Position numbers and translations under genes: made by a program. The notes under the pieces were generated by a model, which saw nothing but the letters and a program-made list of their open reading frames with translations, was not told where the DNA came from and ran no database searches. From positions 1-64,000 of the forward strand of contig JANXQO010000114.1 in the NCBI GenBank assembly GCA_025353485.1: DNA of 64,000 nt, in the 5' to 3' direction. This document shows positions 21,203 to 36,150 of this stretch, piece by piece; the stretch's first letter is position 1, and the number at the start of each line of letters is the position of its first letter. The stretch is from Chitinophagales bacterium. GTDB taxonomy: Bacteria > Bacteroidota > Bacteroidia > Chitinophagales > Chitinophagaceae.

Positions 21203-22489
21203 TTAATGCATAGACCGTGTAATGGCTATCCTAAGGCCTGCACTCTTCACCGGCAGATGACCTATACCAATTCCTTTTAACGGCAGTTGTAAATAAGGTT
21301 CAAAGCGAATATGGATTTTATTTCCTAAGTCTTTCTCATAGCCCAATCCAAGGTCAATAGCAGCAGCAAAATATCGCCTGTCTTTTTTGTATGAAGTATT
21401 CACCTTTCCTTGAATTCCATTGAGCATAGTATAATACTGGTTATTTTCTTCGGTCATTATATATGAAGAAAAACCTGCTGTTGTAAAAAGACGATGGTTG
21501 TGTTTCATCAACAGATCATAGCGAAGATGAAGAGGTATTTCTAAAACCCTGCTGCTTCCATGAACTTCAATTAACTCAGTTCCGGCTGGCATGGTTGAAC
21601 GCATTTCATCTGTGCTAAAATATTTTCCGGGTGTCCAGTAAAATTTTTTTGCGAATAACAGTCCGGTTTCAAGTGATAGTGCAGTACTAAAGCGATAACC
21701 GGTAAGCACTCCTACATCAAATCCGGCTTTTTTAAATCCCTGATCCTTGACGGCGTTTATATCAACCCCTGATACCATTCCAAAATAAAATCCTTTTTTT
21801 GAAAATTTGGTTTTTATGTTTGCCCCGTCTTTATTTAATGGTAAGCCATCAAATTGTTTCACCCTGTTATATTGCTCAGGAGATAATTTAATCGTATTCA
21901 AAAAACTTTCTTTTTCAGAAAGAGGAATAAGGGAAACTTCATTTACCAAATCATTTTTTGTGATACTTGATTTTTCATCAGTATTATTCTCTGCAACAGC
22001 AAACGTTACGTTATTTGTCTGATCCGATTTTATTTTAGCCGATATGCCGGAATTGATAGCATCAGTATTTTTGGAGACAGTCTTTTTACCATCCGCTATT
22101 GAATGATTGGTAGCAATAGATTGATTCTTATTTTGAGATAAACTTTTTTCCTGAGTTGAACTTTCCGGTAAAATTTGGTTACCACCTTTCTTAGTAGTAA
22201 TTGAAGATGTGGGTGGTGCTGTATATTTCTCTGCATTTTGCAGGATTGGATTATTTTGCTTCTTACCATTATTTACAACCAAATATCCAAGTAATAAAAA
22301 ACTGAATAGCAACACTGCCGTATACTTTTTATGTTGCCATCCCTGCTTTTGCTTAGGTATATGCACGCCTGCAGACTTCTGCGAAATTTTTGTAGCAATA
22401 TCATCCCACTTATCCTCACCTTGCTTTAGCGGATAAGCTTCTGCTGCCCTTCGCAACAAGTCTTCCATATCGGGTTCTAAATCCTGCAT
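21203..22489 (-). CDS. Inner-membrane-spanning protein with C-terminal outer-membrane beta-barrel-like domain
   Basis: 428 residues. An N-terminal cytosolic part (MQDLEPDMEDLLRRAAEAYP...DKWDDIATKI) is followed by one transmembrane helix (about 53-71, VLLFSFLLLGYLVV), a long Ser/Thr/Lys/Asn-rich linker, and from residue about 225 an OMP_b-brl-like domain (GFYFGMVSGVDINAV, GFDVGVLTGYRFSTALSLETG, IHIRFEPYLQLPLKG). It overlaps the upstream ECF sigma gene by 13 bases, so translation is coupled. The arrangement suggests a regulator/sensor of that sigma factor reaching across the periplasm; this is inference. Confidence 0.7.
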   Translation of the reverse strand: MQDLEPDMEDLLRRAAEAYPLKQGEDKWDDIATKISQKSAGVHIPKQKQGWQHKKYTAVLLFSFLLLGYLVVNNGKKQNNPILQNAEKYTAPPTSSITTKKGGNQILPESSTQEKSLSQNKNQSIATNHSIADGKKTVSKNTDAINSGISAKIKSDQTNNVTFAVAENNTDEKSSITKNDLVNEVSLIPLSEKESFLNTIKLSPEQYNRVKQFDGLPLNKDGANIKTKFSKKGFYFGMVSGVDINAVKDQGFKKAGFDVGVLTGYRFSTALSLETGLLFAKKFYWTPGKYFSTDEMRSTMPAGTELIEVHGSSRVLEIPLHLRYDLLMKHNHRLFTTAGFSSYIMTEENNQYYTMLNGIQGKVNTSYKKDRRYFAAAIDLGLGYEKDLGNKIHIRFEPYLQLPLKGIGIGHLPVKSAGLRIAITRSMH

Positions 22490-23049
22490 AATTTTCCTTC
22501 CTCCATATTTTTAATTAGTTTTTGCACCAGGGCTTTTGCCCTGCTCAGGCTCGATCTTGATGTACTTATTGAAATGTTCATCATCTCAGCAATCTGACTG
22601 TGCGAATAACCATCAAGAACATATAAATTAAAAACAACGTGATAATTTGGCGGCAGCTCTTTTATCAGGCTGATGAGATCTTTGTATAAAATCAACTGGT
22701 CAGCATCATCATATTTATCTGTTATCTCCCATACATCTTCAGGTATTCCACCAATTTCAGGAAGCATATTGCTATGTCTCAGTTCATCAATGGAACAATT
22801 GATCATGATCCGTTTTAACCATCCCATCAGCAGTTTCTCAGTGTCATCTCCTTCACGCATTTTAAAATTATCAAAATGATTAAAAGCTTTCACAAATCCG
22901 TCCGTTACTATATCAATGGCTTTCTCATACCGGTATATGTATCTAAAAACCACCTTGCAGGCAAAGCCACGATAGCGGTCATAAAGCAGCCGTTGATATT
23001 TAGGCTCCTTATGTATGCACCCTTTAATAATGTGGTTTATATTTTCCAA
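22477..23049 (-). CDS. ECF-type RNA polymerase sigma factor
   Basis: 190 residues. Region 2: YRGFACKVVFRYIYRYEKAIDIVTDGFVKAF and LLMGWLKRIMINCSIDELRH; region 4: IKELPPNYHVVFNLYVLDGY SHSQIAEMMNIS followed by SRSSLSRAKALVQKL. It has no extra domains. The only partner is the membrane/beta-barrel gene overlapping its 3' end. The promoter should lie in 23050-23251, a 202-base gap that also holds the 3' end of the arsenosugar cluster; no convincing motif was seen there. Confidence 0.92.
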   Translation of the reverse strand: MENINHIIKGCIHKEPKYQRLLYDRYRGFACKVVFRYIYRYEKAIDIVTDGFVKAFNHFDNFKMREGDDTEKLLMGWLKRIMINCSIDELRHSNMLPEIGGIPEDVWEITDKYDDADQLILYKDLISLIKELPPNYHVVFNLYVLDGYSHSQIAEMMNISISTSRSSLSRAKALVQKLIKNMEEGKLCRI

Positions 23050-23251
23050 AGCCCTGCTTTATTTTTAAACTCATTTATGATAATATGTATCAATCGGGAC
23101 AACGCTTTATACCCCTGCAAACTTTGAAGCCTTTTATATAGATACGGATTAACCTTAAGAACGCTGCAACAAGTGTTAAAAAATTATAAGCTGTTAATTT
23201 AGCCAATTATAATAAGTGATACGTCAATATTTTAACTTGTTAGGATTACTT

Positions 23252-24070
23252 TTATCTTTTGGAAGAATGTTTTTTCCAGGGACGAATGGTAGTAAATGGC
23301 AATTTTAAAAGATTTCCAATGGTTAACTCTTTTTCATCAGCATAAGCCGGTACGCCTGTTACAATTTCATTTTGATGGATGTTTATTCTTACTGTTTTAT
23401 GTATCCTGTCCCAGAAAGAAAAAATGATGGAGTAATTGCTGTCTGTTTCTCTCTTTACAATTGAGTGATGAATGCCATGCATCCTTGGCGTTACAATTAA
23501 TTTATTTAAGAGTTTCTCAAAATGGAATGGAAGTTTGGTATTGCTGTGATGAAATTGAGTGGCTGCTTCAAAAATAATTTCATAAATAAGAACAAGTGTG
23601 ATTGGAGCTCCTGTTAATAACACTGCAGCGCCACGAAAGAATACGGAACCAATCATTTCACCAAAATGAAAACGGAATGCTGTTGTCAGATCCAGGTCAA
23701 GATCAGTATGATGTACCAAATGAAAACGCCATAGAAAAGGAAGTTTATGTAAAAGTATATGCCAGATATAATTGCTGTAATCAAGCAATAAAAAAACAAT
23801 GGCAGCTTTTAACCATACAGGTACATCCAATAAATAATTCAATCCTATATGCCAGCCCTGATTTTTTACTGCCAGCCAAACCATAGTGGGAATAAAAAGA
23901 ATACGTAGCAAAGCAAAAGCAGGAATAGATACAATGAAATTGATAAGTATTCTTTTCCATCTGCTCTGTACCAGTTTTCTTAATTGAAGTTTAGTTTCAA
24001 GAATAAATAGTACAACAAAAATTGTAATCAGTATAGGTGTCCCATAAATATCAAAAATAGATTTAATCAT
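23252..24070 (-). CDS. Fatty acid hydroxylase/sterol desaturase superfamily membrane protein
   Basis: 272 residues with four or five membrane helices and the His-box pattern of di-iron integral membrane oxygenases: HILLH (about 107), HLVHHTD (about 118-124), then RMHGIHHS near 198. It would hydroxylate or desaturate a lipid. It is the last gene on the minus strand after the arsenosugar genes; the gap to the previous gene is 104 bases, longer than others in the run, so co-transcription is plausible but not certain. A role in modifying an arsenic-containing lipid is only a hypothesis. Confidence 0.85.
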   Translation of the reverse strand: MIKSIFDIYGTPILITIFVVLFILETKLQLRKLVQSRWKRILINFIVSIPAFALLRILFIPTMVWLAVKNQGWHIGLNYLLDVPVWLKAAIVFLLLDYSNYIWHILLHKLPFLWRFHLVHHTDLDLDLTTAFRFHFGEMIGSVFFRGAAVLLTGAPITLVLIYEIIFEAATQFHHSNTKLPFHFEKLLNKLIVTPRMHGIHHSIVKRETDSNYSIIFSFWDRIHKTVRINIHQNEIVTGVPAYADEKELTIGNLLKLPFTTIRPWKKHSSKR

Positions 24071-24174
24071 TGTCTCTTAATTTTTCACCTTATCTGTTTT
24101 GTTGTTTCTGTAAATACATTTTGCCTTCACCAAAGATTAGGGTTGTGCTTAAGTTTTTATGCATGCCTTCATCT

Positions 24175-24777
24175 TTATTCATAGCTGTGTTTTCCTGCGC
24201 TCCATCCTCTTTTTGCCAGATAAGTTTTCCCTGAGGCAATGGCTTCTTTTTCCAGCGGTGTGCCCATAGAATCGTTCCATCGGTTGAGATAGCCAAACAA
24301 ACTGATAACGCCAAGAATTTCTACAATCTCACCTTCATCCCAGTGCTTACGAAGATTATCTGCAACTTCATCTGAAACAGCATTGGGAATGGCGCTGGCA
24401 GCAATAGCAAAGTCAAAGGCTGCTCTTTCAGCATCAGTAAATGAATGATGTTTTTTATATTCCCAAATGTTTTGCAGTTTATCCACTTCGCTTCCGTAAC
24501 GTTTTGCTGCACGTATAGTATGTGCCTGGCAATACCTGCAGCCTGCAGTATAGCTGGAGAGATAACCAATTAAACGTTTTAATGCACTGCTTACTCTGCC
24601 TTCGTTTTTCATCACAGCCATATTCAGATTTACAAATGCTTTTGCAATATGTGGCCGTCGCTGCATGGTGAGCACACTGTTGGGGCAAAAACCCAGTGTT
24701 TCGTTGAAAAATTTTACCAGTTCTTCCAGTTCAGTATTTCCAACGGTGGGTAAAGGTTTTACCAATGGGGTTTTCAT
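24175..24777 (-). CDS. Carboxymuconolactone decarboxylase/AhpD-like peroxidase-related protein
   Basis: 200 residues of the AhpD-like helical fold: SALKRLIGYLSSYTAGCRYC QAHTIRAAKRYG holds the CxxC redox motif, followed by a helix FTDAERAAFDFAIAAS and WDEGEIVEILGVISLFGYLNRW. Likely a thiol-disulfide peroxidase-type activity. This is a second CMD-family gene in the same strand run (the other at 31877-32212 is the one typical of arsenosugar clusters). It lies 24 bases after the flavoprotein gene. Confidence 0.85.
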   Translation of the reverse strand: MKTPLVKPLPTVGNTELEELVKFFNETLGFCPNSVLTMQRRPHIAKAFVNLNMAVMKNEGRVSSALKRLIGYLSSYTAGCRYCQAHTIRAAKRYGSEVDKLQNIWEYKKHHSFTDAERAAFDFAIAASAIPNAVSDEVADNLRKHWDEGEIVEILGVISLFGYLNRWNDSMGTPLEKEAIASGKTYLAKRGWSAGKHSYE

Positions 24778-24801
24778 AATTTTACTTTATTAGGTAAATG
24801 A

Positions 24802-25875
24802 TTAATCATCGTCTCTTAATTTTTTGCCTTCGCTTTTTTTAGTATGCCATGTCGCATCTTTATTAAGTCCAAGGTCATCCTGAATTTTTGGTGATGATCC
24901 TTTTGGCGCTTTGCCAACCATCATTTCAAAATAACGGACCCCATCCTGTACACTTGCCCAAATATGCTTTGGCGGTTGGTATCCATAAGCTCTGTATTTA
25001 TTTGGTTTTACTTTTCCTTTTTGTTGAACGAAGATTTTAAATTGATTTACCCATTCATTAAAAGCTTGCATAAATTCATTTTCCTCAATCACATCCTCTG
25101 CCTGGTTATCACTGTACTTTTTTCCTTTGCCGGAGGTAGCATGTGCCCATAAATTATCAGGCACCTCTATCCCTCCATAACGGCATTGCCAAACCAGCGG
25201 CGCATAAGCATCTCTTTCATGTTCGAAAGGTTCTTCTGGTGCGTTAAAATAATTTTTGTGTTGCAATATTTTAGGAACATTGTTCTCATCCATCTCATCG
25301 CCCCCTTCATCTCCATAGCAAAAGAAGGCTGCGGTTCTGCCTTCAAGGTGGTTAACACTCATTTCCTTCCATTGCTCTGTATGTTCCAGCGCCATTGCTT
25401 TTTCAGGATTTTTATGATCAATAGTTTTTTCATCAGGATTGCCACCATTCATACAAACCAATCTATCGAACATGAGCTTTAAATTGGAGCTACAGCTATA
25501 CCAATTTATCGGACCAATGATAGCCCATGCATCAGCCATATCTAATCTTGAATACAAATCTAAATTCCACATAAGGTCAGGTTCTTTGCTGCTGTTCTTT
25601 TCATAACAGTTACAGGGCCATACACATAATGCCATTGATGTGGATACACAGGCATTGCAGCTTTGTATATGTTCCCTTGCATATACATTTCCCAGATCTT
25701 CATAATCAATTTCCCAATTCTGCGGAAGCATTTCAGCCATCTTCAACATCAGCATTCTTGATTTGCTGTCAACACCGGGACAATTATATTGCCTTCTGTC
25801 AGAGCCGGAAATAATTAATATTCTAAAAGGTCTTTGAGATGGTGAAAGCTTTGCATTATCATCGTTTGGTTTCAT
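24802..25875 (-). CDS. Flavodoxin-like/NADPH-dependent FMN reductase family protein with a Cys-rich motif
   Basis: 357 residues. The N-terminal half has the flavodoxin-like start FRILIISGSDRRQYNCPG and the FMN-site segment DAWAIIGPINWYSCSSNLKLMFDR. Between them lies a cluster Cys73, Cys76, Cys84, Cys88, Cys90 (CNAC...CVWPCNC), which recalls iron-sulfur flavoproteins, although the spacing is not the standard one. The C-terminal 130 residues are charged and unrecognised. Probably a redox flavoprotein; electron donor and substrate are unknown. Gaps to both neighbours are 14 and 24 bases. Confidence 0.75.
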   Translation of the reverse strand: MKPNDDNAKLSPSQRPFRILIISGSDRRQYNCPGVDSKSRMLMLKMAEMLPQNWEIDYEDLGNVYAREHIQSCNACVSTSMALCVWPCNCYEKNSSKEPDLMWNLDLYSRLDMADAWAIIGPINWYSCSSNLKLMFDRLVCMNGGNPDEKTIDHKNPEKAMALEHTEQWKEMSVNHLEGRTAAFFCYGDEGGDEMDENNVPKILQHKNYFNAPEEPFEHERDAYAPLVWQCRYGGIEVPDNLWAHATSGKGKKYSDNQAEDVIEENEFMQAFNEWVNQFKIFVQQKGKVKPNKYRAYGYQPPKHIWASVQDGVRYFEMMVGKAPKGSSPKIQDDLGLNKDATWHTKKSEGKKLRDDD

Positions 25876-25889
25876 TATATATTATTATG

Positions 25890-26213
25890 TTATGCTTTAG
25901 TTTTTTTCTTTATCGTTTTTACAGATGAATAAATACCATACACAATCATCACTCCAATAAAAACATACACCCATACCGGGATATTTTTGCCTGCAATAAT
26001 TAGATACAAATAAGCTGAAATAAAACAAAAGCCTGTGAGCAATAAAGGCAGCACAAAAGATTTTTTATGCTTACTATTTTTGATAGTCCATCTAAGACAT
26101 AGAAAAAATAAAGGTATGGCACCAATATAAATGCCTCCGAATATGTAAGGATTTACATTGTATTTCCCCCCCAAACTTAAAAACCATTCTTTAAAAGTTT
26201 CCCACCATGCCAT
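25890..26213 (-). CDS. Small membrane protein in the arsenosugar gene run
   Basis: 107 residues with three predicted membrane helices (about 22-40, 52-72, 80-98) and a basic C-terminal tail KTIKKKTKA. Not recognised. The N-terminal segment WWETFKEWFLSLGGKYNVNPYIFG looks amphipathic. It sits 13 bases after the TIGR04283 glycosyltransferase and 14 before the flavoprotein, so it is almost certainly co-expressed with both. A transport or membrane-anchoring role for the pathway can only be guessed. Confidence 0.65.
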   Translation of the reverse strand: MAWWETFKEWFLSLGGKYNVNPYIFGGIYIGAIPLFFLCLRWTIKNSKHKKSFVLPLLLTGFCFISAYLYLIIAGKNIPVWVYVFIGVMIVYGIYSSVKTIKKKTKA

Positions 26214-26226
26214 AATTTATCTATTT

Positions 26227-26922
26227 CTAAAGTTTGTGTTTGCGAACAAGTTTTCTATGCAACTTCAATAAATGTTGCTGTGAGTAACCTAAATAATAAA
26301 GGAACCAGATACGAAAAAAGATTGCCTGCATTCTGTAAATACCGTTGTCTAAATATTTTTTTGCGGAAGTGGTTACAAAATCATTCATCACTATAAATTT
26401 TCCATACTTCTTTATCCTATGAATAATCTCCTGATCTTCCATCATCAAAAGACTTTCCTTAAAACCACCGCTTTTATTAAAAACATCTTTTGATACAAAT
26501 AAACTTTGGTCGCCAAAGCGAACGGCATTTACATCGAACCTTGTAAACCAGCTATTAACTTTTAAAAACCAATGAGAATAATCAAAACAAAGCCTGAAGC
26601 AACCGCTACTGAATCCTTTGTCTATTGCTTCCATAATGTAAGCAGTAAATTTTTTTGGTGGAATACTATCAGCATGAAGAAAGTATAGAATATCACCTCT
26701 AGCAATTGATGCGCCTTTATTCATTTGGGCAGCCCTTCCTTTTTTCTCACTTACTATTGTTATACCTTTAAAATTACAGGCAATTGAGACTGTTGCATCA
26801 GTACTTCCACCATCCACAATGATTATTTCTATTGGATACTGCCCATTGTCAGTATGAGTTTTACCAATTGTTTCAGCTATTTGTTCTTCTTCATTATAGG
26901 TTGGAATAATTATACTTATCAT
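26227..26922 (-). CDS. Arsenosugar biosynthesis glycosyltransferase, TIGR04283 family
   Basis: 231 residues, GT2/GT-A fold: MISIIIPTYNEEEQIAETIG, VDGGSTDAT, EKKGRAAQMNKGA, metal site YFLHADSIPP, and RFGDQSLFVSKDVF. It is paralogous to 18920-19624 but keeps the family pattern better. In arsenosugar clusters it is thought to transfer a sugar unit in building glycosylated dimethylarsinoyl-ribosides; that is family-level knowledge, not proven here. Its start overlaps the preceding gene by 29 bases. Confidence 0.88.
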   Translation of the reverse strand: MISIIIPTYNEEEQIAETIGKTHTDNGQYPIEIIIVDGGSTDATVSIACNFKGITIVSEKKGRAAQMNKGASIARGDILYFLHADSIPPKKFTAYIMEAIDKGFSSGCFRLCFDYSHWFLKVNSWFTRFDVNAVRFGDQSLFVSKDVFNKSGGFKESLLMMEDQEIIHRIKKYGKFIVMNDFVTTSAKKYLDNGIYRMQAIFFRIWFLYYLGYSQQHLLKLHRKLVRKHKL

Positions 26923-27283
26923 AGGCAGTTACTTTGTATGATACTAATTGCTTTAATTCTTCAAGTGATTTACATTGCTGAAATTCTGTTGCAGGTATTA
27001 TCTGTTTTATTTTGTCATCATCTTTTATATAAGCTGATGGAAAACCCGCAGAGCTAACCCGATATTTACTTATAAATTCATCTTTATGTAAAAAAACAAC
27101 TTGTAACGGTAGCGTTTTTATAAACTTTTTCCATTCCGTATTCATGTTGAAATTACCAAAGGTTAGAGCACAGAGCTGGCATTTATATGTAGATGGAGAA
27201 AGGATCTTGTGAGCAAAGTCTGATAGTGAATTAAATAATCCGCTTTCTGCATTATAAACAAATATCAATTGCCTTATACTCAT
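26894..27283 (-). CDS. Small conserved protein of arsenosugar clusters, unknown function
   Basis: 129 residues, no signal peptide. It starts RQLIFVYNAESGLFNSLSDF and contains TYKCQLCALTFGNFNM, a CxxC pair that is the most striking conserved segment, then LQVVFLHKDEFISKY. The start suggests a thioredoxin-like or Rossmann-like strand but I cannot place it in a family. It overlaps both neighbours (32 bases with the TIGR04282 gene, 29 with the TIGR04283 gene), so it is tightly coupled to two sugar-transfer genes. Confidence 0.65.
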   Translation of the reverse strand: MSIRQLIFVYNAESGLFNSLSDFAHKILSPSTYKCQLCALTFGNFNMNTEWKKFIKTLPLQVVFLHKDEFISKYRVSSAGFPSAYIKDDDKIKQIIPATEFQQCKSLEELKQLVSYKVTAYDKYNYSNL

Positions 27284-27878
27284 TGATTAATGCAAGTTTT
27301 GTTTTTACTAAATCTTTTTCATCATCTATATCTGACAGTTCCTGTAATAGATGATAAGCAAGATTTTTTTTGCTGCAATTATCCAAAGTTTGTTGCAACA
27401 CATTGGCTGTGCTCCAGGAAATATTTTGAAAAATTTCAGGATATAATTTCTTCATGCCTAACAAATAATAACCACCGTCTTTAGCAGGACCAATAACAAT
27501 ATCATGCTTTTTCAAAAATGAGAAGGCATCATTAATTATTGATGAAGTAAGTTCAAAACAATCCGTTCCTATAATAACCGCTTCTTCATATCCATTTTTA
27601 AAAGCATACTCAAAAGCATTTTGCATTCTTTCACCAAGATCATTGCCCATTTGAATTTGCTTGTTAAAAGTTTCATCACTCCAAATGTCCTGGGCTTCTA
27701 TATCATTTGAATAGAAAACAATTTTACCAGTATTTATATCTTTTGTTATTCCTTTGGTATGCAGCAAAAGTTCTTTATAAACATAAAAGGCAACATCCTT
27801 ACCAGCTGTTTCTGCAAGCCTTGTTTTTACTTCACCATGAATTAAGTTCTTTGCAAAAATTAAAACCACCTGTTTCAT
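27252..27878 (-). CDS. Arsenosugar biosynthesis glycosyltransferase, TIGR04282 family (DUF2064)
   Basis: 208 residues with a nucleotidyl/glycosyl transferase-like fold: KQVVLIFAKNLIHGEVKTRL, MGNDLGERMQNAFEYAF, VIIGTDCFELTSSIINDAF, IVIGPAKDGGYYLLGMKKL and SDIDDEKDL near the end. This is the DUF2064/TIGR04282 pattern that co-occurs with TIGR04283 proteins. It directly abuts the purine nucleoside phosphorylase gene (27878/27879), so the phosphorolysis step and sugar transfer are expressed together. Confidence 0.9.
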   Translation of the reverse strand: MKQVVLIFAKNLIHGEVKTRLAETAGKDVAFYVYKELLLHTKGITKDINTGKIVFYSNDIEAQDIWSDETFNKQIQMGNDLGERMQNAFEYAFKNGYEEAVIIGTDCFELTSSIINDAFSFLKKHDIVIGPAKDGGYYLLGMKKLYPEIFQNISWSTANVLQQTLDNCSKKNLAYHLLQELSDIDDEKDLVKTKLALINEYKAIDICL

Positions 27879-28688
27879 TTATAATGACTTTATTGTTTCA
27901 TAAAAAAGATTAGAAAGCTTTGTATCTGCTTTACCTGCCACTTCAATTATTTCATCAATATTTAAAGGATGCAAATTATTCGGATCACATTCATCAGTAA
28001 TTACAGAAATGGCAGCACAAGGTAGTTGCATGTGATTGGCAGCAATAACTTCAGGCACTGTTGACATGCCAATCATATCCGCTCCAATAATTTTCAGGTA
28101 ACGATATTCTGCTCTTGTTTCCAGGTTGGGACCATTCACGGCAGCATAAACACCTTTCTTTAATTTGATGTTTAATTTATTTGCTTTCTCAATTAATTTA
28201 TTTGAAAGGTCTTTGCTGTAAGGCTGGCTCATGTCCGGGAAGCGACTGCCCAATTCGTCTATATTTTTTCCTGTCAATGGATTTTCCAACTGCAGATTTA
28301 TATGGTCATCAATTAAAACCAAATCTCCTTTTTTGAAACTCAAATCAATTCCACCTGCAGCATTGGATAAGAAAAGTTTCTGTACTCCAAGTAATTTCAA
28401 CACTCTGACAGGAAAAACAATCTGTTGCATTGAATATCCTTCATAAGCATGAAAGCGGCCTTGCATTACAATCACTTTTTTATTTTCTATATCACCATAA
28501 ATAAGATTACCCTTATGAAATTCAACTGTTGATAAAGGGAAGCCCGGGATTTTAGCATAAGGCACAGTGTTGGTTACATTAATTAAATTTAAAAGTTCAT
28601 TAAGCCCCGTGCCCAGCACAACGCCAATTTCAGCATTTAAAAAACCATGTGATAATAAAAAATCTTTTGCTTTATTTAATTGCTCCAT
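27879..28688 (-). CDS. Purine-nucleoside phosphorylase (PNP-II/PunA type), arsenosugar cluster member
   Basis: 269 residues: VVLGTGLNELLNLI phosphate loop, QGRFHAYEGYSMQQIVFPVRV, SNAAGGIDLSFKKGDLVLIDDHINL, YAAVNGPNLETRAEYRYLK, MSTVPEVIAANHM and SVITDECDPNN. It cleaves purine nucleosides with phosphate. In this setting the likely substrate is the adenosyl-arsenical made by ArsS (5'-deoxy-5'-dimethylarsinoyl-adenosine), releasing adenine; that assignment follows from the cluster and is inference. Ordinary purine salvage is the alternative. Confidence 0.92.
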   Translation of the reverse strand: MEQLNKAKDFLLSHGFLNAEIGVVLGTGLNELLNLINVTNTVPYAKIPGFPLSTVEFHKGNLIYGDIENKKVIVMQGRFHAYEGYSMQQIVFPVRVLKLLGVQKLFLSNAAGGIDLSFKKGDLVLIDDHINLQLENPLTGKNIDELGSRFPDMSQPYSKDLSNKLIEKANKLNIKLKKGVYAAVNGPNLETRAEYRYLKIIGADMIGMSTVPEVIAANHMQLPCAAISVITDECDPNNLHPLNIDEIIEVAGKADTKLSNLFYETIKSL

Positions 28689-28697
28689 ACTTATAGC

Positions 28698-29672
28698 TTA
28701 ACAACATCCTCCGCCATCATAGAAAAAGGTACTTTCAGAAATGAAAATATCATTCGTGTTTAATGCCTTTAAATTGCCTGCTGTTTTATCGCAAACTGCT
28801 AAGGGTTGATTATGTAAAATCATATGTCCTTTTTCATCATCAAAAAAATCTTCCTGTCCATAATAAATAGCCGTTTTACCGGTAAACACACAAGGACCGT
28901 CAGCAGGCATAGGATCTTTAATAGCACATACTTCTACGCTTTCTATAAATATCAATTCATCGGTATCATAATTAACAGGATCTAAAATTCTATAAGGACG
29001 TTTTGCTCTTATTTCCACTGTTCCAAATCCAACATCAGTAATCAATTTGATGTATTCTTTTAATGGAACGGAACCGCTTAAACACAAAGCCCTGAGGCGT
29101 TCATCTTGTTTTAAATTTTCAGGCATTTCATCATCACAAACTGGATCTGATAATACCAATCTTCCACGGGGCTTCAGTACCCGGTACATTTCCTGTAATG
29201 CTTTTTTAAGATCCTCATGTTTAAATATATTGAATAAACAATTTTGTGCAGCTACATCAATACAGTTATTTTCAATTGGCAAATTCAAAGCATCACCTTT
29301 TACAAGCTTTATAAATTCATTACGAAACCATGGATTTTGTTTTTCTGCATCTACAAAATTTTCTTTACAAGCCTGCAGCATTTCGTCAACAACATCTACA
29401 CCTATAATGTTACCAATTTGCCGGCTGAAATAAGAAAATTGTAATAGCTCCATTCCACCACCAACCCCAACATACAATACCTTTGGATTATTTACTAAGT
29501 CTCTGGGGTTGACAGTGCTGCCACAACCATAATTCATTTCCAGCATTTTGTTTGGAATGCTTAATCCCGGTAATTGCCAAACAGGAGTGGTGGTACAACA
29601 CAAACCAACCTGCGGATTTTCTGCTGCTTCTTTATAAACGTTCTTTGTTGTATCTAAATAATCCTGTTGCAT
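28698..29672 (-). CDS. arsM: Arsenite S-adenosylmethionine methyltransferase, arsenosugar type
   Basis: 324 residues, class I SAM methyltransferase: VGVGGGMELLQFSY (68-81) is the SAM loop, and IGVDVVDEML, DVAAQNCLFNIF and RVLKPRGRLVLSDP follow. Conserved cysteines for arsenic are Cys25/Cys26 (GLCCTTTP) and Cys50 (NYGCGSTV), and the protein ends GGGCC. The arsenosugar-type ArsM methylates arsenite toward dimethylarsenite, the substrate used by ArsS. It sits nine bases from the PNP and PiT genes on either side. Confidence 0.93.
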   Translation of the reverse strand: MQQDYLDTTKNVYKEAAENPQVGLCCTTTPVWQLPGLSIPNKMLEMNYGCGSTVNPRDLVNNPKVLYVGVGGGMELLQFSYFSRQIGNIIGVDVVDEMLQACKENFVDAEKQNPWFRNEFIKLVKGDALNLPIENNCIDVAAQNCLFNIFKHEDLKKALQEMYRVLKPRGRLVLSDPVCDDEMPENLKQDERLRALCLSGSVPLKEYIKLITDVGFGTVEIRAKRPYRILDPVNYDTDELIFIESVEVCAIKDPMPADGPCVFTGKTAIYYGQEDFFDDEKGHMILHNQPLAVCDKTAGNLKALNTNDIFISESTFFYDGGGCC

Positions 29673-29680
29673 AATATTTT

Positions 29681-30799
29681 TTATCTAATGAATGAATGAA
29701 AAACAAAATAAAAAAGAGCGCTTAACATTGCTGCGATCGGCAATGTTAGTATCCACGATAAAACAATTTTTGAAATCTCTTTGTTGTTGGCAGTTTTATT
29801 TACTAAACCAATGCCATAAATACTTCCAACAGACACATGCGTAGTGGAAACAGGCAGTCCAAATTTTGAGGCGGCAATAACCAAAGCGCCTGTTATCAGG
29901 TTTGCAGTAAACCCTTGCCCATGATTGAATTTAGAAATTTTTTGACTCATAGTAGCGGCTACTTTTTTTGCATTGAAGAAGCCACCAACTGCCATTACTA
30001 TAGCAAGAATAGTTATGTAAACGGGTATGCCGAAAATATGTGTAATTAATAAAAGAGAAACTAGTTTAGGTGTATCGTTCAGCCCTCTTGCAAATGATAC
30101 GATGGCTGCACTAACATAATGTAAATTGTTTAACAAAGGTTGAAAATTAATGCCTAAAAACTTTCCCTGGTATTGCATTGCGCAATCTTCAGTGGAACCA
30201 ATCGTGGTTTGTAAAACAGGAAGCGCTGTAAATGAACTGGAAGTGTTAGCTATGGCAGCAACCGGTATCCATTTTTTACCGACGCAGACACAACTTTCTT
30301 CTGAAATGCCTGCTGCTTTTCTTGTTTTGTGAAACAACTGGTAAAATAAAGTACTTAATATAACTGCAGCGATCGGGCTTAATAAAAGAGGAAGAAAAAA
30401 TGTTTTTCCCAGCTTGTTAAAGTTTACTGCTGTGCCAACTGCCACAAGTCCGGTCCCAATTAATGCACCAACCAAGCCATGTGTTGTAGAAATAGGAAAA
30501 CCAAACCGTGTAGCTAATAAAACAGTAGTTCCTGCGGCCAGTGCAACGGCCAGAACAAAATCTGCAGATTGAATTATATTATCTGGCACCAATCCCTTTC
30601 CTGAAAAATTTTTGATGAGTGTTTCTGCAAAAAAATATGAACATATAGAACCGACAAAAGTGGCCACGGTAGCCAATATCAATGCGGTTTTATAATTTAA
30701 AGTACCGCTGCCCCACAGCGTTGCAACGCCTTTAAAATTATCGTTGGCTCCGTTGGAGTAGGTAAGAAGAAGAACAGCAATAAAAAGAAATACGACCAT
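29681..30799 (-). CDS. PiT-family inorganic phosphate transporter
   Basis: 372 residues from the ATG at 30799 (17 bases after arsS; a longer frame to 30871 overlaps arsS and is rejected). Both PiT signature repeats are present: SNGANDNFKGVATLWGSG near the N terminus and SFARGLNDTPKLVSLLL in the second half, with GFPISTTHGLVGAL and GLPVSTTHVSVGSI. About ten membrane helices. PiT carriers import phosphate and also arsenate; in this cluster it may feed arsenic, or supply phosphate to the phosphorylase. That link is inference. Confidence 0.92.
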   Translation of the reverse strand: MVVFLFIAVLLLTYSNGANDNFKGVATLWGSGTLNYKTALILATVATFVGSICSYFFAETLIKNFSGKGLVPDNIIQSADFVLAVALAAGTTVLLATRFGFPISTTHGLVGALIGTGLVAVGTAVNFNKLGKTFFLPLLLSPIAAVILSTLFYQLFHKTRKAAGISEESCVCVGKKWIPVAAIANTSSSFTALPVLQTTIGSTEDCAMQYQGKFLGINFQPLLNNLHYVSAAIVSFARGLNDTPKLVSLLLITHIFGIPVYITILAIVMAVGGFFNAKKVAATMSQKISKFNHGQGFTANLITGALVIAASKFGLPVSTTHVSVGSIYGIGLVNKTANNKEISKIVLSWILTLPIAAMLSALFYFVFHSFIR

Positions 30800-30816
30800 A
30801 ATAATATTTTTAATTT

Positions 30817-31866
30817 TTAAACTACTGCACCACCACAGCTTGAGCCAGCACCTGCTGTACAACCATAACAATGTTGCCCTACAATTATATTTCTGTTAAT
30901 AAGTGTTTCTGTATTGAATTGTGATATATGTTTTGAAGAACAATTTACTTTCAATTCCAGCATTTGGTTAAAATCGCAATCGTATAAATAGCCATCCCAT
31001 CCAATAGAAATTGTATTTCTACACATCACACTTGCGGCTGCAACAGGATTGTAGGCACTAACCAGTTTTTCCATATAGGTTTCATAATTACCACTTGTTA
31101 GCAAATAATCTAAAAACCTGCTGATGGGAAGATTTGTAATGGCAAATAAATTGTTGAACTCAATACCGTATCGCTGCATTAATACCTGCTTATATTCTTT
31201 TTCTAACGATTGTTGAGATGGTGGCAAAAATGCACCTGCAGGATTGTAAACCAAATTTAAAATCAAATCTGTTTCTTCTTTTCCATAACCAACTTCATTC
31301 AACATTTGCAAGGCTTTTATGCTGTCTTCAAACACCCCATCACCACGTTGCCGGTCTGTTCTGTCCTGCGTATAAAATGGAAGAGAAGAAATAACTTCGA
31401 TTTTATGTTGTTTATAGAACTGAGGAAGATCATAATATTTTTTATTTGCCAAAATGATGGTAAGATTGCAGCGAACCATTACATGCCTGTCAAGTTTTTT
31501 TATTTCTTCCACAAACCAGCGGAAGTATGGATTCATTTCAGGTGCACCGCCGGTAAGGTCAACTATTTTTAATTGTGGATTATTGCGCAAAACATCCACG
31601 CATTGCTGCATTGATTCTTTTGTCATTATTTCTATTCTGTCTGGTCCGGCATCTACATGGCAATGCCTGCACGTTTGATTGCACATCTTACCAATATTTA
31701 CCTGGAAAATATCTATGCCAACAGGCTTCAAAGGATACAAGCCAATCGTTTCCAGCTTTTGCTGAAAAGGGATAAGAGAAAATTCGCCGGATTTTCCATG
31801 CTTAAGAATTTCAATTTGTTCATGAGCATCGGCAAGAAAACTGTTTTGTGCTTTAAGTGATTTCAT
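30817..31866 (-). CDS. arsS: Arsenosugar biosynthesis radical SAM protein ArsS (Cys form)
   Basis: 349 residues. Radical SAM cluster motif Cys62-x3-Cys66-x2-Cys69 in GKMCNQTCRHCHVDAG, GGAPEMNP (SAM-binding), and a C-terminal auxiliary cysteine region CMC-like: CRNTISIGWDGYLYDCDFNQ and GQHCYGCTAGAGSSCGGAVV (Cys333, 336, 344). ArsS couples a 5'-deoxyadenosyl radical to dimethylarsenite to give a dimethylarsinoyl-adenosine. Some family members carry selenocysteine near the C terminus; here the frame reads through with cysteines and no in-frame TGA. Confidence 0.93.
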   Translation of the reverse strand: MKSLKAQNSFLADAHEQIEILKHGKSGEFSLIPFQQKLETIGLYPLKPVGIDIFQVNIGKMCNQTCRHCHVDAGPDRIEIMTKESMQQCVDVLRNNPQLKIVDLTGGAPEMNPYFRWFVEEIKKLDRHVMVRCNLTIILANKKYYDLPQFYKQHKIEVISSLPFYTQDRTDRQRGDGVFEDSIKALQMLNEVGYGKEETDLILNLVYNPAGAFLPPSQQSLEKEYKQVLMQRYGIEFNNLFAITNLPISRFLDYLLTSGNYETYMEKLVSAYNPVAAASVMCRNTISIGWDGYLYDCDFNQMLELKVNCSSKHISQFNTETLINRNIIVGQHCYGCTAGAGSSCGGAVV

Positions 31867-31876
31867 AGATTCTATT

Positions 31877-32212
31877 TTACATCGCTATCTCCTTTACCTT
31901 GTTCATCATCTGTACACCATGTACGAGGGAAGCACCGCCACGGATGGCACATGCAACATGCACCGCTTCCATCATCTGCGCTTCACTCCACCCTTTTTCA
32001 AAAGCATCACCGCTATATGCATCAATACAGTAAGGACACTGGACAGCATGGGCAACCGCTAAAGCAATCAATGATTTTTCTCTTGCAGTTAATTCACTGT
32101 CTTTAAAAACCTCGCCATAATAAGAAAAAAATTTATCACCCAGGTTTTTTTGAAAGTCTGCTACATTACCGAATTTTTTTAGATCTTCTGAATTGTAATA
32201 GTTGTTACTCAT
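31877..32212 (-). CDS. Arsenosugar biosynthesis-associated peroxidase-like protein (CMD family)
   Basis: 111 residues from the ATG at 32212 (a longer frame adds 14 residues that do not fit the family). AhpD-like: LTAREKSLIALAVAHAVQCP YCIDAYSGDAF contains the CPYC redox motif, then MMEAVHVACAIRGGASLVHG. This small carboxymuconolactone decarboxylase-type protein is a standard member of arsenosugar clusters. It is the first gene of the run down to 23252; ten bases separate it from arsS. Confidence 0.9.
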   Translation of the reverse strand: MSNNYYNSEDLKKFGNVADFQKNLGDKFFSYYGEVFKDSELTAREKSLIALAVAHAVQCPYCIDAYSGDAFEKGWSEAQMMEAVHVACAIRGGASLVHGVQMMNKVKEIAM

Positions 32213-32227
32213 ATAATAGGAATTTAA

Positions 32228-32254
32228 AAATAATGTGCCGCTTGTTAACGGCAC
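32228..32254 (-). terminator. Probable terminator between the sigma/anti-sigma unit and the arsenosugar run
   Basis: On the minus strand GTGCCG (32249-32254) pairs with CGGCAC (32235-32240) across an 8-base loop (TTAACAAG), followed by ATTATTTTTAAA. It suggests that the arsenosugar genes have their own promoter close to 32212-32290, although no clean TAnnTTTG was found there. Confidence 0.55.
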
Positions 32255-32287
32255 AATACTAAATTACATTTTAATTTTATCAGCCGC

Positions 32288-32932
32288 TTATTGCTTAATT
32301 ACAGCTATTGATTGTTGTTTTCCTTTTACACCTGTTAATTTTATCCAATAGCTACCTTTTGAAACATCACCAAAATCCAAAGTAAAATTACTTACGCCTT
32401 TTTTCGCGTTGTAATAATAATGCTTGACAACAATGCCACCTGAATTAATCAGGTTCATTTTGATATTCCCGTCATAAGGTGATGATAAAACCATACTGGT
32501 TTTTGATTTTATAAAAGTTGGGTATACAGATACTATTTCAAAATCTGTTTGCTTATTAGATACCCTGACTATTTTTGAATGAAAAAAATGTCCATCAATA
32601 TCTCCAGCATTTATGCGGTAATAAATCACCGGCGAATTTAAAGATACGCTGTCGATAAATTCAAATGGTTGCAGGCATCTAAGCCTGTCTGCAATAAAAC
32701 TATTAATTGTGGTGAATGTTAGGGCATCTGATGATTTCTGAATTTGAAAATTTGCATAAGAAATATAACATTCGGTTTTCCATTTCAACTTAGTAATATT
32801 ATTTAACGATCCGGCTTCAAATAAAGACAGGCTTACCGGATATCTTATGCTATCTGTCTGTGCCTGCCCGGAGTATACCAGGAAAAATAAAACAAAAAAT
32901 ACATATGCTTTTTTCATAGAAAAAATTTTCAT
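32288..32932 (-). CDS. Secreted protein with T9SS-type C-terminal domain
   Basis: 214 residues (or 209 from the second ATG at 32917). Signal peptide AYVFFVLFFLVYSGQAQ. A middle domain with fibronectin-like features (LSLFEAGSLNNITKLKWKTE, ANFQIQKSSDALTFTTI, INAGDIDGHFFHSKIVRV) leads into a C-terminal sorting-like domain (VYPTFIKSKTSMVLSS ... GSYWIKLTGVKGKQQSIAVIKQ). Likely exported by T9SS; short for the class. The start ATG at 32932 overlaps the anti-sigma stop (ATGA), so translation is probably coupled to it. Confidence 0.7.
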   Translation of the reverse strand: MKIFSMKKAYVFFVLFFLVYSGQAQTDSIRYPVSLSLFEAGSLNNITKLKWKTECYISYANFQIQKSSDALTFTTINSFIADRLRCLQPFEFIDSVSLNSPVIYYRINAGDIDGHFFHSKIVRVSNKQTDFEIVSVYPTFIKSKTSMVLSSPYDGNIKMNLINSGGIVVKHYYYNAKKGVSNFTLDFGDVSKGSYWIKLTGVKGKQQSIAVIKQ

Positions 32933-33180
32933 CTTAATTTTTCAAGAATCAATGCTTCAAGTTCATCTGTATCTTCTACTTCAGGTACAACACTAAATTT
33001 TTTTTGAAGTAGTTCATTAATTAACTGGCTCTGACTCATATAATTTCTACAGCCTGAACACATAGCAGTATGCATGTGCAATTGCATAGTTTTTAGAAAA
33101 CCTAAAGGAACATGTTCTTTCATTTCCATTAGCCGGGTTGCCTTTACGCAAGACAATATCATTGTATTCATTATACTCAT
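32929..33180 (-). CDS. Small zinc-binding anti-sigma factor-like protein
   Basis: 83 residues. The segment His37-x3-Cys41-x2-Cys44 (HTAMCSGCRNYMSQSQLI) together with Cys11 fits the zinc-binding anti-sigma (ZAS/zf-HC2) motif. No membrane helix, so it would be a soluble anti-sigma factor. It follows the ECF sigma gene (33716-34270) after one membrane protein gene and is very likely its regulator. Confidence 0.72.
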   Translation of the reverse strand: MSIMNTMILSCVKATRLMEMKEHVPLGFLKTMQLHMHTAMCSGCRNYMSQSQLINELLQKKFSVVPEVEDTDELEALILEKLR

Positions 33181-33189
33181 ACAAAATAT

Positions 33190-33651
33190 TTAAACATGTG
33201 CAGTATGAAAATTATTGTTAGAATTTACAATTGCATAAGCCGGAACTACTAATGCCACAACTATACCGAATACCAAATGACCCATAAGAGAACCAAGCAT
33301 CATCAACAGCATATTATCATTGCTCATTGGCATGGGCATAATCTTACCTAACACAAACAGCATTATCTGTGCAAACACAAATACCACAAATCCATACAAC
33401 AGACCTTTTATTAATTTACTATGAATGTGCACTTTTGGATTAAATAAATATACGTATAGTGCTGCGAAAATAATCCCTATCATAAAGTGCATTAAATAAC
33501 CAACCAGTACGGGCATTCCCATCATCCCAGCCAGCATTTCTGCGGGGTTCATTTTGGGCAAGCCCATTAATGGAGCCATTAAACCAACTACGGTCATCAC
33601 AACTGTGGCGAGCATTCCGGCAATAAATGTTTGTGCGATTTTACTTTTCAT
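33190..33651 (-). CDS. Four-helix membrane protein (DUF6789-like)
   Basis: 153 residues with four membrane helices, Met- and Gly-rich (LATVVMTVVGLMAPLMGLP, MLAGMMGMPVLVGYLMHF, VLGKIMPMPMSNDNMLLM). It resembles the DUF6789 family of small membrane proteins; function unknown. The high Met content could suit metal handling but proves nothing. It lies between the sigma factor and its presumed anti-sigma factor (gaps 64 and 9 bases), so it is probably part of the same response. Confidence 0.65.
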   Translation of the reverse strand: MKSKIAQTFIAGMLATVVMTVVGLMAPLMGLPKMNPAEMLAGMMGMPVLVGYLMHFMIGIIFAALYVYLFNPKVHIHSKLIKGLLYGFVVFVFAQIMLFVLGKIMPMPMSNDNMLLMMLGSLMGHLVFGIVVALVVPAYAIVNSNNNFHTAHV

Positions 33652-33715
33652 AATAAATAATTTTATTTTTTAAATAGTCGCACCTTTAGTTCATTCCTGA
33701 CAAAGCTTTTAAAAT

Positions 33716-34270
33716 TTATTCTTTAAACCACTTAACTTCCAGGCAATTTCTTAGCTGAAGTTTAGCCCTGTGAATGATCTGCCAGAAATTGGAAGTAGTT
33801 ATTTCCAATTGTGAGCAAATAATTTTACTGTCTGTTTCTTCCAGATATTTTAATTGAACTATAGAATACCATTTTTCAGGCAATGCCTTTAAACATTCTG
33901 ATAAAGTATTTGAAAATTCAGGATCATCTAATAATTCTTTTTCTTCACTCCAATTTTGCGGTGTGTATTCAGGCTTCCAATGATGATTGTCATCAAAGAA
34001 TTTTTCGATGATGTCCGAAGAAACTTCAGTGCCTGTTTTATATTTAGAGCGATAATAATCAGCAATCTTATTTTTCAATATGGAGAATAACCATGTCTTT
34101 ATATTGCTTTTATTTTGAAAATTGGTATAAGATTTTAAAGCTGAAAGAAATGTTTCCTGAACGAGATCTTCAGCAAGTTCCTTTTGATATACTTTAGAAA
34201 GAGTATAAGCATATAAATCTTTGGTATGAGTTTTTACCATTGAAATTATATCGTTTTGCACATCCATCAT
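33716..34270 (-). CDS. ECF-type RNA polymerase sigma factor
   Basis: 184 residues. Region 2 LAEDLVQETFLSALKSYTNF and IKTWLFSILKNKIADYYR; region 4 CLKALPEKWYSIVQLKYLEE plus CSQLEITTSNFWQIIHRAKLQLR. The insert between them (EKFFDDNHHWKPEYTPQNWS) is typical of one Bacteroidota subgroup. With the downstream zinc protein it makes a sigma/anti-sigma pair, likely for redox or metal stress given the ligands. Whether it controls the arsenosugar genes next door is an open question. Confidence 0.9.
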   Translation of the reverse strand: MMDVQNDIISMVKTHTKDLYAYTLSKVYQKELAEDLVQETFLSALKSYTNFQNKSNIKTWLFSILKNKIADYYRSKYKTGTEVSSDIIEKFFDDNHHWKPEYTPQNWSEEKELLDDPEFSNTLSECLKALPEKWYSIVQLKYLEETDSKIICSQLEITTSNFWQIIHRAKLQLRNCLEVKWFKE

Positions 34271-34384
34271 TAGTATATGATATAAGAATTACAAAGATCA
34301 TAACTTATTAGTGTATTAAGGGCTGATACTTATAAAATATCATCTTAGAAATTTTTCTAATTTTTAATTTCCCCTCTCCAACCT

Positions 34385-34392
34385 TATCTTTG
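34385..34392 (+). promoter_or_regulatory. Candidate -7 box of the atpB operon
   Basis: TATCTTTG followed by CG, a full TAnnTTTG match 19 bases before the atpB ATG. At the expected -33 position (34362-34365) the sequence is TTTT rather than TTTG. Confidence 0.55.
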
Positions 34393-34411
34393 CGCCAAAT
34401 TTAGGGATGGC

Positions 34412-35587
34412 ATGATGGCAAAGAGCATAAAATCTATATTGGTAGCCGTTTTCAGCGTGTTTTCTGTACTTTTTTTTAATCCAGCAGTAGCGCAGGAAAA
34501 TAAGGAAGCTCACGTGGCAAATGAGAAGACAGAAAAGAAGTCTTTTGATGCTAATGAAGTAATTTTTGGTCACGTTTTAGATGCCCACGAATTTCATTTT
34601 TTATCTTATAAAGGAAGCGACGGTCAGCAGCATCATGCAACCATTCCCCTACCCGTTATTTTATATTCTAAAGCAAAAGGGTTTGATGTTTTCATGTCAT
34701 CAAAATTTCATCATGGAGAAAAAAATTATAAAGGATATGATCTTTTAACCGATGAAGAAATTGCAGAACGCAAACTTGATCCTAAAAAATATACAGCCGG
34801 GCAAATTGTTGCAGTAAATAATGATGGCACAATTAATAATAGTGTAACAGTATATGATGTTTCTCTTACACGTAACGTTGTGCAAATGCTTTTAGTGCTT
34901 GCTTTGTTAGTTTGGGTTTTGTTGTATATGGCAAAAAAATACAGGAGTGGACAAGGAATAACAACAGCACCAAAAGGAGTACAAAATCTAATGGAGCCAA
35001 TTATCACTTTTATTCGTGACGAAGTTGCAGTGCCAAATCTTGGCCGCAAATACAAAAAGTATTTTCCGTATTTACTTACCGTTTTCTTTTTTATTTTGAT
35101 AAATAATCTTGTTGGATTAATCCCGGGATCAGCCAATGTTACAGGCAATATTGCATTTACTATGGTGCTCGCTGTTATCTCTTTTATAGTGATAATGTTT
35201 AGTACCAATAAGCATTATTGGGGGCATATTTTTAATCCGCCGGTACCAATGGGAGTAAAGCCGATTTTAGTTCTTGTGGAAACGCTGGGAGTACTCACAA
35301 AACCTTTCGCATTAATGATACGTCTTTTTGCAAATATGATCGCAGGGCATATCATTATCATCAGTTTAATTTCCTTAATATTTATTTTCGGTTCATTAAG
35401 CACAGCAATAGGATGGGGTTTTTCACCGCTGTCAGTTGCGTTTGTAATATTTATTTATTTTATTGAACTTTTAATCGCTTTTTTACAGGCATATATTTTT
35501 ACCATTCTTACAGCAGTATTTATTGGTCAGGCTTTTGAAGGTGGTCATGATGATGTAGATCATCACGAAGAAGCAGTTATTGTTTAG
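34412..35587 (+). CDS. atpB: ATP synthase F0 subunit a
   Basis: 391 residues, longer than the 270-residue enterobacterial form because of an N-terminal signal-like sequence (1-28, LFFNPAVAQ) and a 120-residue extracytoplasmic part, normal for Bacteroidota. The proton-channel helix TKPFALMIRLFANMIAGH contains the essential Arg304; other helices are LLVLALLVWVLLYMA, YLLTVFFFILINNLVG and FIYFIELLIAFLQAYIF. Subunit a forms the proton half-channels with subunit c. First gene of atpB-E-F-H; it may start at either of two adjacent ATGs. Confidence 0.95.
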   Translation: MMAKSIKSILVAVFSVFSVLFFNPAVAQENKEAHVANEKTEKKSFDANEVIFGHVLDAHEFHFLSYKGSDGQQHHATIPLPVILYSKAKGFDVFMSSKFHHGEKNYKGYDLLTDEEIAERKLDPKKYTAGQIVAVNNDGTINNSVTVYDVSLTRNVVQMLLVLALLVWVLLYMAKKYRSGQGITTAPKGVQNLMEPIITFIRDEVAVPNLGRKYKKYFPYLLTVFFFILINNLVGLIPGSANVTGNIAFTMVLAVISFIVIMFSTNKHYWGHIFNPPVPMGVKPILVLVETLGVLTKPFALMIRLFANMIAGHIIIISLISLIFIFGSLSTAIGWGFSPLSVAFVIFIYFIELLIAFLQAYIFTILTAVFIGQAFEGGHDDVDHHEEAVIV

Positions 35588-35600
35588 TTTTTATTTTTAA

Positions 35601-35867
<267 letters not shown>

Positions 35868-35870
35868 AGC

Positions 35871-36150
35871 TCTGAGCTTGTCGAAGAGTTACTGCACTCA
35901 AAGCACAGGGCGGAGAGTGTAGTATTTTTTACCCCTAAATCCCCGCCTGAACGATTAGTCGGGCAGGCTTAAAGGGACTTTGGAAAGTTCTTACAATTTG
36001 AGTGTGATATTTTGGTAGCCGGCATTTGTGCTGCTATTAAACATCGTTGTCCCAATAACTATCGGGACTCACTTGTACTTTTATAACATTATTCAACAAG
36101 TGGTTTAGAGTTCGTAAACTATTTAACTATTTAACTATTTAATCATTTAA
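35871..36150. repeat. Repeat-filled gap between atpE and atpF
   Basis: The gap contains, in order: TGAGCTTGTCGAAGAG (35873-35888), a word I know as a widespread repeat; a nested element at 35932-35983 (CCCCTAAATCCCC ... TAAAGGGACTTTGG with the imperfect palindrome 35945-35968 GCCTGAACGATT.. GTCGGGCAGGC in its loop); GTCCCAATA/TATCGGGAC (36049-36068, one mismatch), a relative of the palindromes in tadA and ispG; and four 8-base tandem units at 36119-36150. Confidence 0.75.
36119..36150 (+). repeat. Octamer tandem repeat directly upstream of atpF
   Basis: Three copies of CTATTTAA (36119-36142) plus TCATTTAA (36143-36150), ending two bases before the atpF ATG at 36153. It occupies the place of the ribosome-binding region. 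Copy-number change would alter spacing there. Confidence 0.8.

Follow-up and report, generated by a model that had tools for sequence, protein, structure and literature searches.

The first 64,000 nucleotides of contig JANXQO010000114.1 (assembly GCA_025353485.1), from a bacterium of the order Chitinophagales, are called the window here. They carry a run of twelve genes, all on the minus strand, from position 32254 down to 23252 (Table 1), and the evidence supports well the view that these encode an arsenosugar pathway extended by a recurrent hydroxylase of lipid type. The radical SAM enzyme ArsS, the methyltransferase ArsM, and the TIGR04282, TIGR04283, and TIGR04169 proteins all score above their curated cut-offs within this one locus, which identifies it as an arsenosugar cluster. 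ArsS is the only match to TIGR04167 in the source genome, and the TIGR04169 gene adjoins ArsS in most mapped loci. With the purine nucleoside phosphorylase (PNP), every member of the canonical cluster (ArsM, ArsS, PNP, TIGR04282, TIGR04283, TIGR04169) is present. Unlike the canonical cluster, this one adds a membrane di-iron protein of the fatty acid hydroxylase superfamily (FAH), a Cys-rich flavoprotein (FLAV), a CxxC protein of 129 amino acids (ORF129), a second CMD protein (CMD200), and a small membrane protein (TM107). The closest named relatives of FLAV, FAH, and ArsS come from Ferruginibacter and other Chitinophagaceae, and the source organism probably belongs to this family.

A preliminary description of this DNA gave the positions, strand, and order of the genes, as well as the gaps between those at the downstream end, and all of these are confirmed: 13 nucleotides (26214-26226), 14 (25876-25889), 24 (24778-24801), and 104 (24071-24174). 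Its gene list is right for the genes that it names and incomplete in overlooking ORF129, which overlaps both of its neighbors, the genes for the TIGR04282 and TIGR04283 proteins.

Table 1. The twelve minus-strand genes of the locus, from the upstream to the downstream end. Scores are in bits, with the cut-off of the model in brackets.
Gene product	Position	Strand	Basis of assignment
TIGR04169 arsenosugar-associated CMD/AhpD-like protein	31877..32254	-	174.8 (120); likely ATG 32212
ArsS, radical SAM enzyme	30817..31866	-	TIGR04167, 454.3 (300)
PiT-family phosphate (arsenate) transporter	29681..30871	-	PF01384, 224 (33.7); first ATG ~30799
ArsM, arsenosugar-type arsenite methyltransferase	28698..29672	-	NF038099, 559.9 (400)
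Purine nucleoside phosphorylase (PNP)	27879..28688	-	NF006054, 340.7 (218)
TIGR04282 CofC/DUF2064-like nucleotidyltransferase-type protein	27252..27878	-	210 (134)
ORF129, 129-aa CxxC protein	26894..27283	-	No family; thioredoxin-like model
TIGR04283 GT2 glycosyltransferase	26227..26922	-	226.4 (182)
TM107, 107-aa membrane protein	25890..26213	-	Found in 1 of 298 own-order genomes
FLAV, 357-aa Cys-rich flavoprotein	24802..25875	-	PF03358, 30.9 (24)
CMD200, second CMD protein, 200 aa	24175..24777	-	PF02627, 35.8 (23)
FAH, membrane di-iron fatty acid hydroxylase superfamily	23252..24070	-	PF04116, 86.2 (31)

Recurrence of FAH and FLAV with ArsS

The preliminary description suggested that the cluster may reach beyond the standard arsenosugar set, an idea that would fail if the added genes did not follow arsS in other genomes. 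FAH and FLAV do follow it: both recur with ArsS in several phyla, FAH adjoining the TIGR04283 gene, and together with ORF129 they extend the arsenosugar cluster recurrently, beyond chance neighborhood. TM107 and CMD200 do not, as neither recurs generally with ArsS. Loci were mapped with profiles built from protein clusters of neighborhood genes, and matches below 150 bits (L062, L136) were not counted as FAH.

One test started from ArsS in an acidobacterial order, that of locus L047, represented by 100 genomes in a sample centered on G313, which had itself come from the FLAV search. ArsS is present in 27 of these genomes and FAH in 23, with 21 carrying both, two FAH only, six ArsS only, and 71 neither (p = 3e-14); when two genomes that initially came to light via FLAV are set aside, the counts become 19, 2, 6, and 71 (p = 4e-13). 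In one of the two FAH-only genomes, G391, FAH lies beside TIGR04282 and ORF129 genes at the point where the contig ends (L138). Thirty acidobacterial ArsS loci were available, 29 retrieved via ArsS plus L047, and 15 of them hold FAH no more than 10 kb from ArsS, against an expectation of 0.23 derived from the 72 PF04116 genes in 31 genomes. In all 15, a TIGR04283 gene stands 15-181 nt from FAH (truncated by the contig end in L122, broken in L124). Among the 15 loci lacking FAH, a TIGR04283 gene was found in two, L101 (~8 kb from ArsS) and L113 (at a contig end). FAH-clade matches of at least 48% identity number 27: 15 are near ArsS, four are beside other genes of the cluster (TIGR04282, TIGR04283, ORF129, FLAV, or ArsM), and eight stand alone, all but that of G384 in genomes that possess ArsS.

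Eight of the 15 FAH-less acidobacterial ArsS loci carry another glycosyltransferase (e.g., L098 12589-13704), GT4-like as judged by eye. Perhaps this marks an alternative branch used where FAH is missing.

A second test started from FLAV. Scanning the contigs of one genome per species, 84,980 species in all, gave 44 FLAV loci, and ArsS lies in the retrieved stretch of 18. The search for ArsS elsewhere in the genome covered 43 of the 44 loci (L073 comes from the same genome as L054 and was omitted), and ArsS was found somewhere in 30 of the 43 genomes, compared with 106 of 297 other genomes of the window's own order (Fisher p = 4e-5), a contrast weakened by setting many phyla against a single order and by ignoring phylogeny. 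Of the 18 FLAV loci with ArsS, 13 have FAH no farther than 10 kb from it; those without ArsS, many of which are short contigs, have FAH near FLAV in 3 of 26 (p = 7e-5). These three are cut or interrupted arsenosugar clusters: L034 begins within PNP; L045 begins within FLAV, the rest of its cluster lying on contig L130 of the same genome; and L072 shares a contig with the ArsS of L135. In five loci (L032, L033, L035, L037, L038), the match to FLAV and that to FAH share 5 bases, which suggests translational coupling.

The ArsS-less FLAV loci, 16 of which were viewed by eye, have no shared neighbor except for a disulfide oxidoreductase in some, and FLAV was therefore rejected as an obligate part of the arsenosugar system. 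A pyridine nucleotide-disulfide oxidoreductase of the mercuric-reductase type, also judged by eye, occurs in 10 FLAV loci (L033, L044, L046, L054, L057-L059, L071-L073). On the contig shared by L072 and L135, ~9 kb of other genes separate TM107 from FLAV, which is incomplete there, in a cluster that is otherwise similar.

Within the window's own order, the extension is rare. In a sample of 298 genomes, 107 of them with ArsS, FAH was found in 36 (E<=1e-40, a threshold that would miss more distant FAHs), lying beside ArsS only in the source genome and in G195; FLAV (E<=1e-20) was found in the source genome only. ArsS neighborhoods were inspected in 20 of the 107 genomes (all 12 of the same family besides the source genome and eight others; G224 was among those picked, because of its CMD200 match), and in the remainder, linkage of FAH was judged from match coordinates. 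In 19 of the 20 inspected loci FAH is missing from the surroundings of ArsS, and FLAV is missing from all 20.

Several observations weigh against the combined proposal set out below. FAH accompanies ArsS in just 2 of 107 ArsS genomes of the own order, and 9 of the 20 inspected loci have a TIGR04283 gene near ArsS with no FAH, so FAH is dispensable for making arsenosugars. In the acidobacterial order, 6 of the 27 genomes with ArsS lack FAH. The Fisher and binomial tests ignore phylogeny. Of the 43 FLAV genomes searched, 13 yielded no ArsS, many of these being incomplete, and just two of the 30 acidobacterial ArsS loci have FLAV, L047 being one that was itself found through FLAV. ORF129 occurs without FAH in two loci of Bacteroidota, L039 and L070. 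Finally, since 104 nt separate FAH from CMD200, FAH could have a promoter of its own.

In a rival account, the added genes are functionally unrelated neighbors, brought together by chance or through one inherited arrangement. That account stands for TM107 and CMD200, and it draws some support from the rarity of FAH near ArsS in the own order. It draws further support from the ArsS tree (a quick tree of 77 rows, made without bootstrap and containing three long branches), where the FAH labels are partly clustered by descent. In the same tree, however, the ArsS proteins of Bacteroidota and Acidobacteriota separate, each group having FAH-near and FAH-less members, and the starred branches require at least eight changes of FAH linkage, a number that may be too high because some of the rows labeled as lacking FAH are cut contigs (e.g., L113). 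Two rows were labeled FAH-near by hand: L130, whose genome has FAH on another contig (L045), and L135, which shares a contig with its FAH (L072, at a distance of ~16 kb). Gain or loss that happened repeatedly, with the pairing kept, argues for function. These changes, the linkage in four phyla, and the excess over expectation in Acidobacteriota already contradict chance neighborhood for FAH and FLAV, and as an account of the added genes it is highly improbable. FAH is very probably a functional member of the arsenosugar pathway.

Protein families of the extension

The superfamily of FAH is recognized by the His boxes HX3H, HX2HH, and HX2HH. FAH passes the gathering cut-off of the superfamily model, PF04116, and the residues of its boxes (H104/H108, H117/H120/H121, and H198/H201/H202) are invariant in 16 of 16 aligned sequences. 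Its sole relative in NCBIfam is OlsE (NF052566), matched weakly by all 16 FAHs. OlsE, like FAH, is a membrane di-iron hydroxylase of PF04116, but FAH reaches 48.9 bits where the equivalog cut-off demands 475, and its identification with OlsE was rejected. A sequence search of solved structures gave no match to FAH (E<=0.01).

In a tree of 68 proteins rooted at the midpoint, 33 of the 34 FAHs linked to arsenosugar genes fall into one starred clade of 44 (support 100/99), and they come from Bacteroidota, Acidobacteriota, Verrucomicrobiota, and Myxococcota. The linked FAH that falls outside, that of L129, is a long-branched outlier. Two of the clade's other 11 members, L072 and L147, are in arsenosugar contexts as well; seven are stand-alone acidobacterial FAHs from genomes with ArsS; and the last two are the stand-alone copy of G384 and L149, from the window's order. 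The stand-alone FAHs of G363 and G418 contain one internal stop each. All remaining PF04116 paralogues lie outside the clade.

FLAV passes the cut-off of the NADPH-dependent FMN reductase family (PF03358). Seven cysteines (C32, C73, C76, C84, C88, C90, and C141) are invariant in 37 sequences, five of them arranged as C-x2-C-x7-C-x3-C-x-C. The structural model (pLDDT 79) is flavodoxin-like and matches FMN reductases with Z ~15; ArsH (2q62; Z 15.0, rmsd 3.5, 186 residues aligned) is among the best matches, tied with other FMN reductases. According to the model, then, FLAV has a fold of the ArsH/azoreductase type, and a role in the redox chemistry of arsenicals is suggested. FLAV resembles ArsH in its flavodoxin-like FMN reductase fold and differs from it in its length, its seven invariant cysteines, and the lack of a match to an ArsH model. 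The last statement refers to TIGR02690, which we take to be the curated ArsH model: it is absent from the NCBIfam matches of the window protein (E<=0.001) and of 37 members (E<=1), the presence of the model in the library being unchecked. FLAV has no match in a sequence search of solved structures (E<=0.1).

ORF129 belongs to a conserved family that has escaped annotation. Its CxxC cysteines, C35 and C38, are invariant in an alignment of 16 members, for which Pfam offers no credible match (best E 0.048), and a sequence search of solved structures with ORF129 gave only chance-level matches. The model (pLDDT 71, below 50 in the stretch 14-33 flanking the CxxC) finds its best, weak structural matches among thioredoxins (Z 7.5, rmsd 2.6, 91 aligned). 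In a set of 39 loci, comprising 29 acidobacterial ArsS loci and ten derived from FLAV or FAH, ORF129 is present in 10 of the 24 with FAH and in none of the 15 without it; in the acidobacterial loci studied, it was found with FAH only.

A candidate route to arsenolipids

The preliminary description raised the possibility of a route from arsenosugars to arsenic-containing lipids, and this is a good hypothesis. The cluster may operate as follows. The PiT transporter would import arsenate, ArsM would produce dimethylarsenic, and ArsS would attach a 5'-deoxyadenosyl group to the methylated arsenical, a reaction that others have established for ArsS (PMC12159101). The enzymatic steps thereafter we infer: PNP would strip off the adenine, leaving 5-dimethylarsinoyl-ribose-1-phosphate; the CofC-like TIGR04282 protein would activate this sugar phosphate; and the TIGR04283 protein would move the arsenoribose onto an acceptor. 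Phosphorolysis, activation, and transfer are the activities familiar from these families. Since the TIGR04283 enzyme is paired with an integral-membrane hydroxylase of lipid type, the acceptor would be a lipid; attachment to the phosphatidylglycerol head group, for example, would give an arsenosugar phospholipid. FAH would tailor the product, either by hydroxylating the arsenolipid or by preparing its lipid acceptor. FLAV and ORF129 might hold the arsenical, or thiols of the cluster, in the right redox state. A lipid-linked arsenical is the likeliest reading of the product, with as much to be said for it as against it, and the combined proposal, in which FAH works with the TIGR04283 protein on such a compound with the help of FLAV and ORF129, is equally balanced. 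Against it, membership in PF04116, which implies di-iron oxidation of substrates embedded in membranes, does not specify the substrate of FAH.

Perhaps FAH belongs to the pathway but acts on ordinary membrane lipids, as OlsE does, protecting the membrane while arsenicals are methylated. OlsE is, after all, the only curated relative of FAH, and hydroxylated ornithine lipids increase stress tolerance, to go by the title of a paper in a reference list. A general stress enzyme, however, would have no need of the close spacing between FAH and the TIGR04283 gene seen in 15 of 15 acidobacterial loci, and the Bacteroidota PF04116 proteins that score somewhat higher against OlsE (77-86 bits, well short of 475) stand apart from the FAH clade as its sister group. 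We consider this explanation possible but rather unlikely. OlsE is described as a hydroxylase of the ornithine lipid head group (PMC3972451), so the target of FAH may be a head group or an acyl chain.

The existence of head-group hydroxylases in the superfamily also leaves room for FAH to act on a water-soluble arsenosugar or its aglycone, yielding a polar arsenical of a new kind and no lipid. The superfamily nonetheless consists of integral-membrane enzymes that act on hydrophobic substrates, and a soluble product is improbable.

If the TIGR04283 protein does use a lipid acceptor, then the expected products fall in the class of the cyanobacterial and algal arsenosugar phospholipids. In the literature covered, reports of arsenosugar phospholipids concern phototrophs, animals, and lake samples. 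A class of arsenolipids is a plausible product in view of reports of arsenosugar phospholipids in an alga and in lake biota (PMC7345539) and, by the title of a paper in a reference list, of arsenolipids made by a cyanobacterium. A published pathway proposal for one algal arsenolipid has the transfer of phytol as its last step (PMC10456119), so the lipid could be an isoprenoid. Discussion of arsenolipids in the literature covered centers on algae, a single cyanobacterium, and the food chain. The literature covered, outside which most subscription journals fall, contained no genes for the conversion of arsenosugars to arsenolipids and no paper that combines arsenosugar, hydroxylase, and radical SAM; none of the matches listed connects a fatty acid hydroxylase to arsenosugar genes.

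Carrying the arsenolipid reading a step further, one might propose, tentatively and with some doubt, that the TIGR04283 protein and the FAH clade constitute, together with their redox partners FLAV and ORF129, a conserved arsenolipid branch of the arsenosugar pathway in heterotrophs of four phyla (Bacteroidota, Acidobacteriota, Verrucomicrobiota, and Myxococcota). The glycosyltransferase would attach arsenoribose to a membrane lipid, and FAH would hydroxylate the product. Such a class of hydroxylated arsenolipids is undescribed in the literature covered. An FAH clade that tracks TIGR04283 across phyla offers a concrete set of candidate genes and culturable test organisms beyond the phototrophs (Niastella populi, Flavisolibacter nicotianae, and Parapedobacter indicus all carry ArsS, TIGR04283, FLAV, and FAH), and it ties two uncharacterized conserved families, the seven-Cys FLAV and the CxxC protein ORF129, to organoarsenic metabolism.

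Local accessories, edges, and flanking genes

TM107 and CMD200 are local, minor accessories. TM107 (E<=1e-4) was found in 1 of 298 own-order genomes, that of the window, and elsewhere in few loci (strong matches in L032-L035 and L072/L135; L075 and L118 gave weaker matches); it was rejected as a general partner of ArsS. The same verdict fell on CMD200, present in 36 of the 298 genomes and within 20 kb of ArsS in only two, the source genome and G224, in the latter ~13 kb from ArsS. CMD200 also sits between FLAV and FAH in L034, a diverged copy occurs in L033, and split, weaker matches occur in L048, L057, L102, and L108. It falls short of the cut-off for the peroxidase-related family TIGR01926 (70.1 vs 81.8 bits).

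A terminator-like hairpin (32255-32234, minus strand) precedes the likely start codon of the first gene and is possibly the upstream edge of the cluster, although the number of terminator-like sites is not above chance (8, vs 7.8 in shuffles). The remaining two such sites on the minus strand within 22900-34500 fall within genes. The Bacteroidota promoter consensus gave four matches, vs 3.3 expected, with none inside the cluster, and sigma-70-like sites (34) were below the 49.4 found in shuffles. On these figures, no promoter is claimed for the cluster. A search of 22000-36000 against Rfam found no family.

A DUF547-like protein is encoded near ArsS or PNP in 13 arsenosugar loci (L034, L035, L079, L081-L089, L092) and was not found in the window between 17001 and 37000. 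The window encodes another TIGR04283 glycosyltransferase at 18920-19624 on the plus strand, opposite to the cluster and ~11 kb from ArsS; it scores 215 bits (cut-off 182) and is ~40% identical to the copy in the cluster. Upstream of the cluster, at 32929-34270, lie genes for an ECF sigma factor, a DUF6789 protein, and an anti-sigma-like protein. The same three are found upstream in L033 and L035 and are possible regulators.

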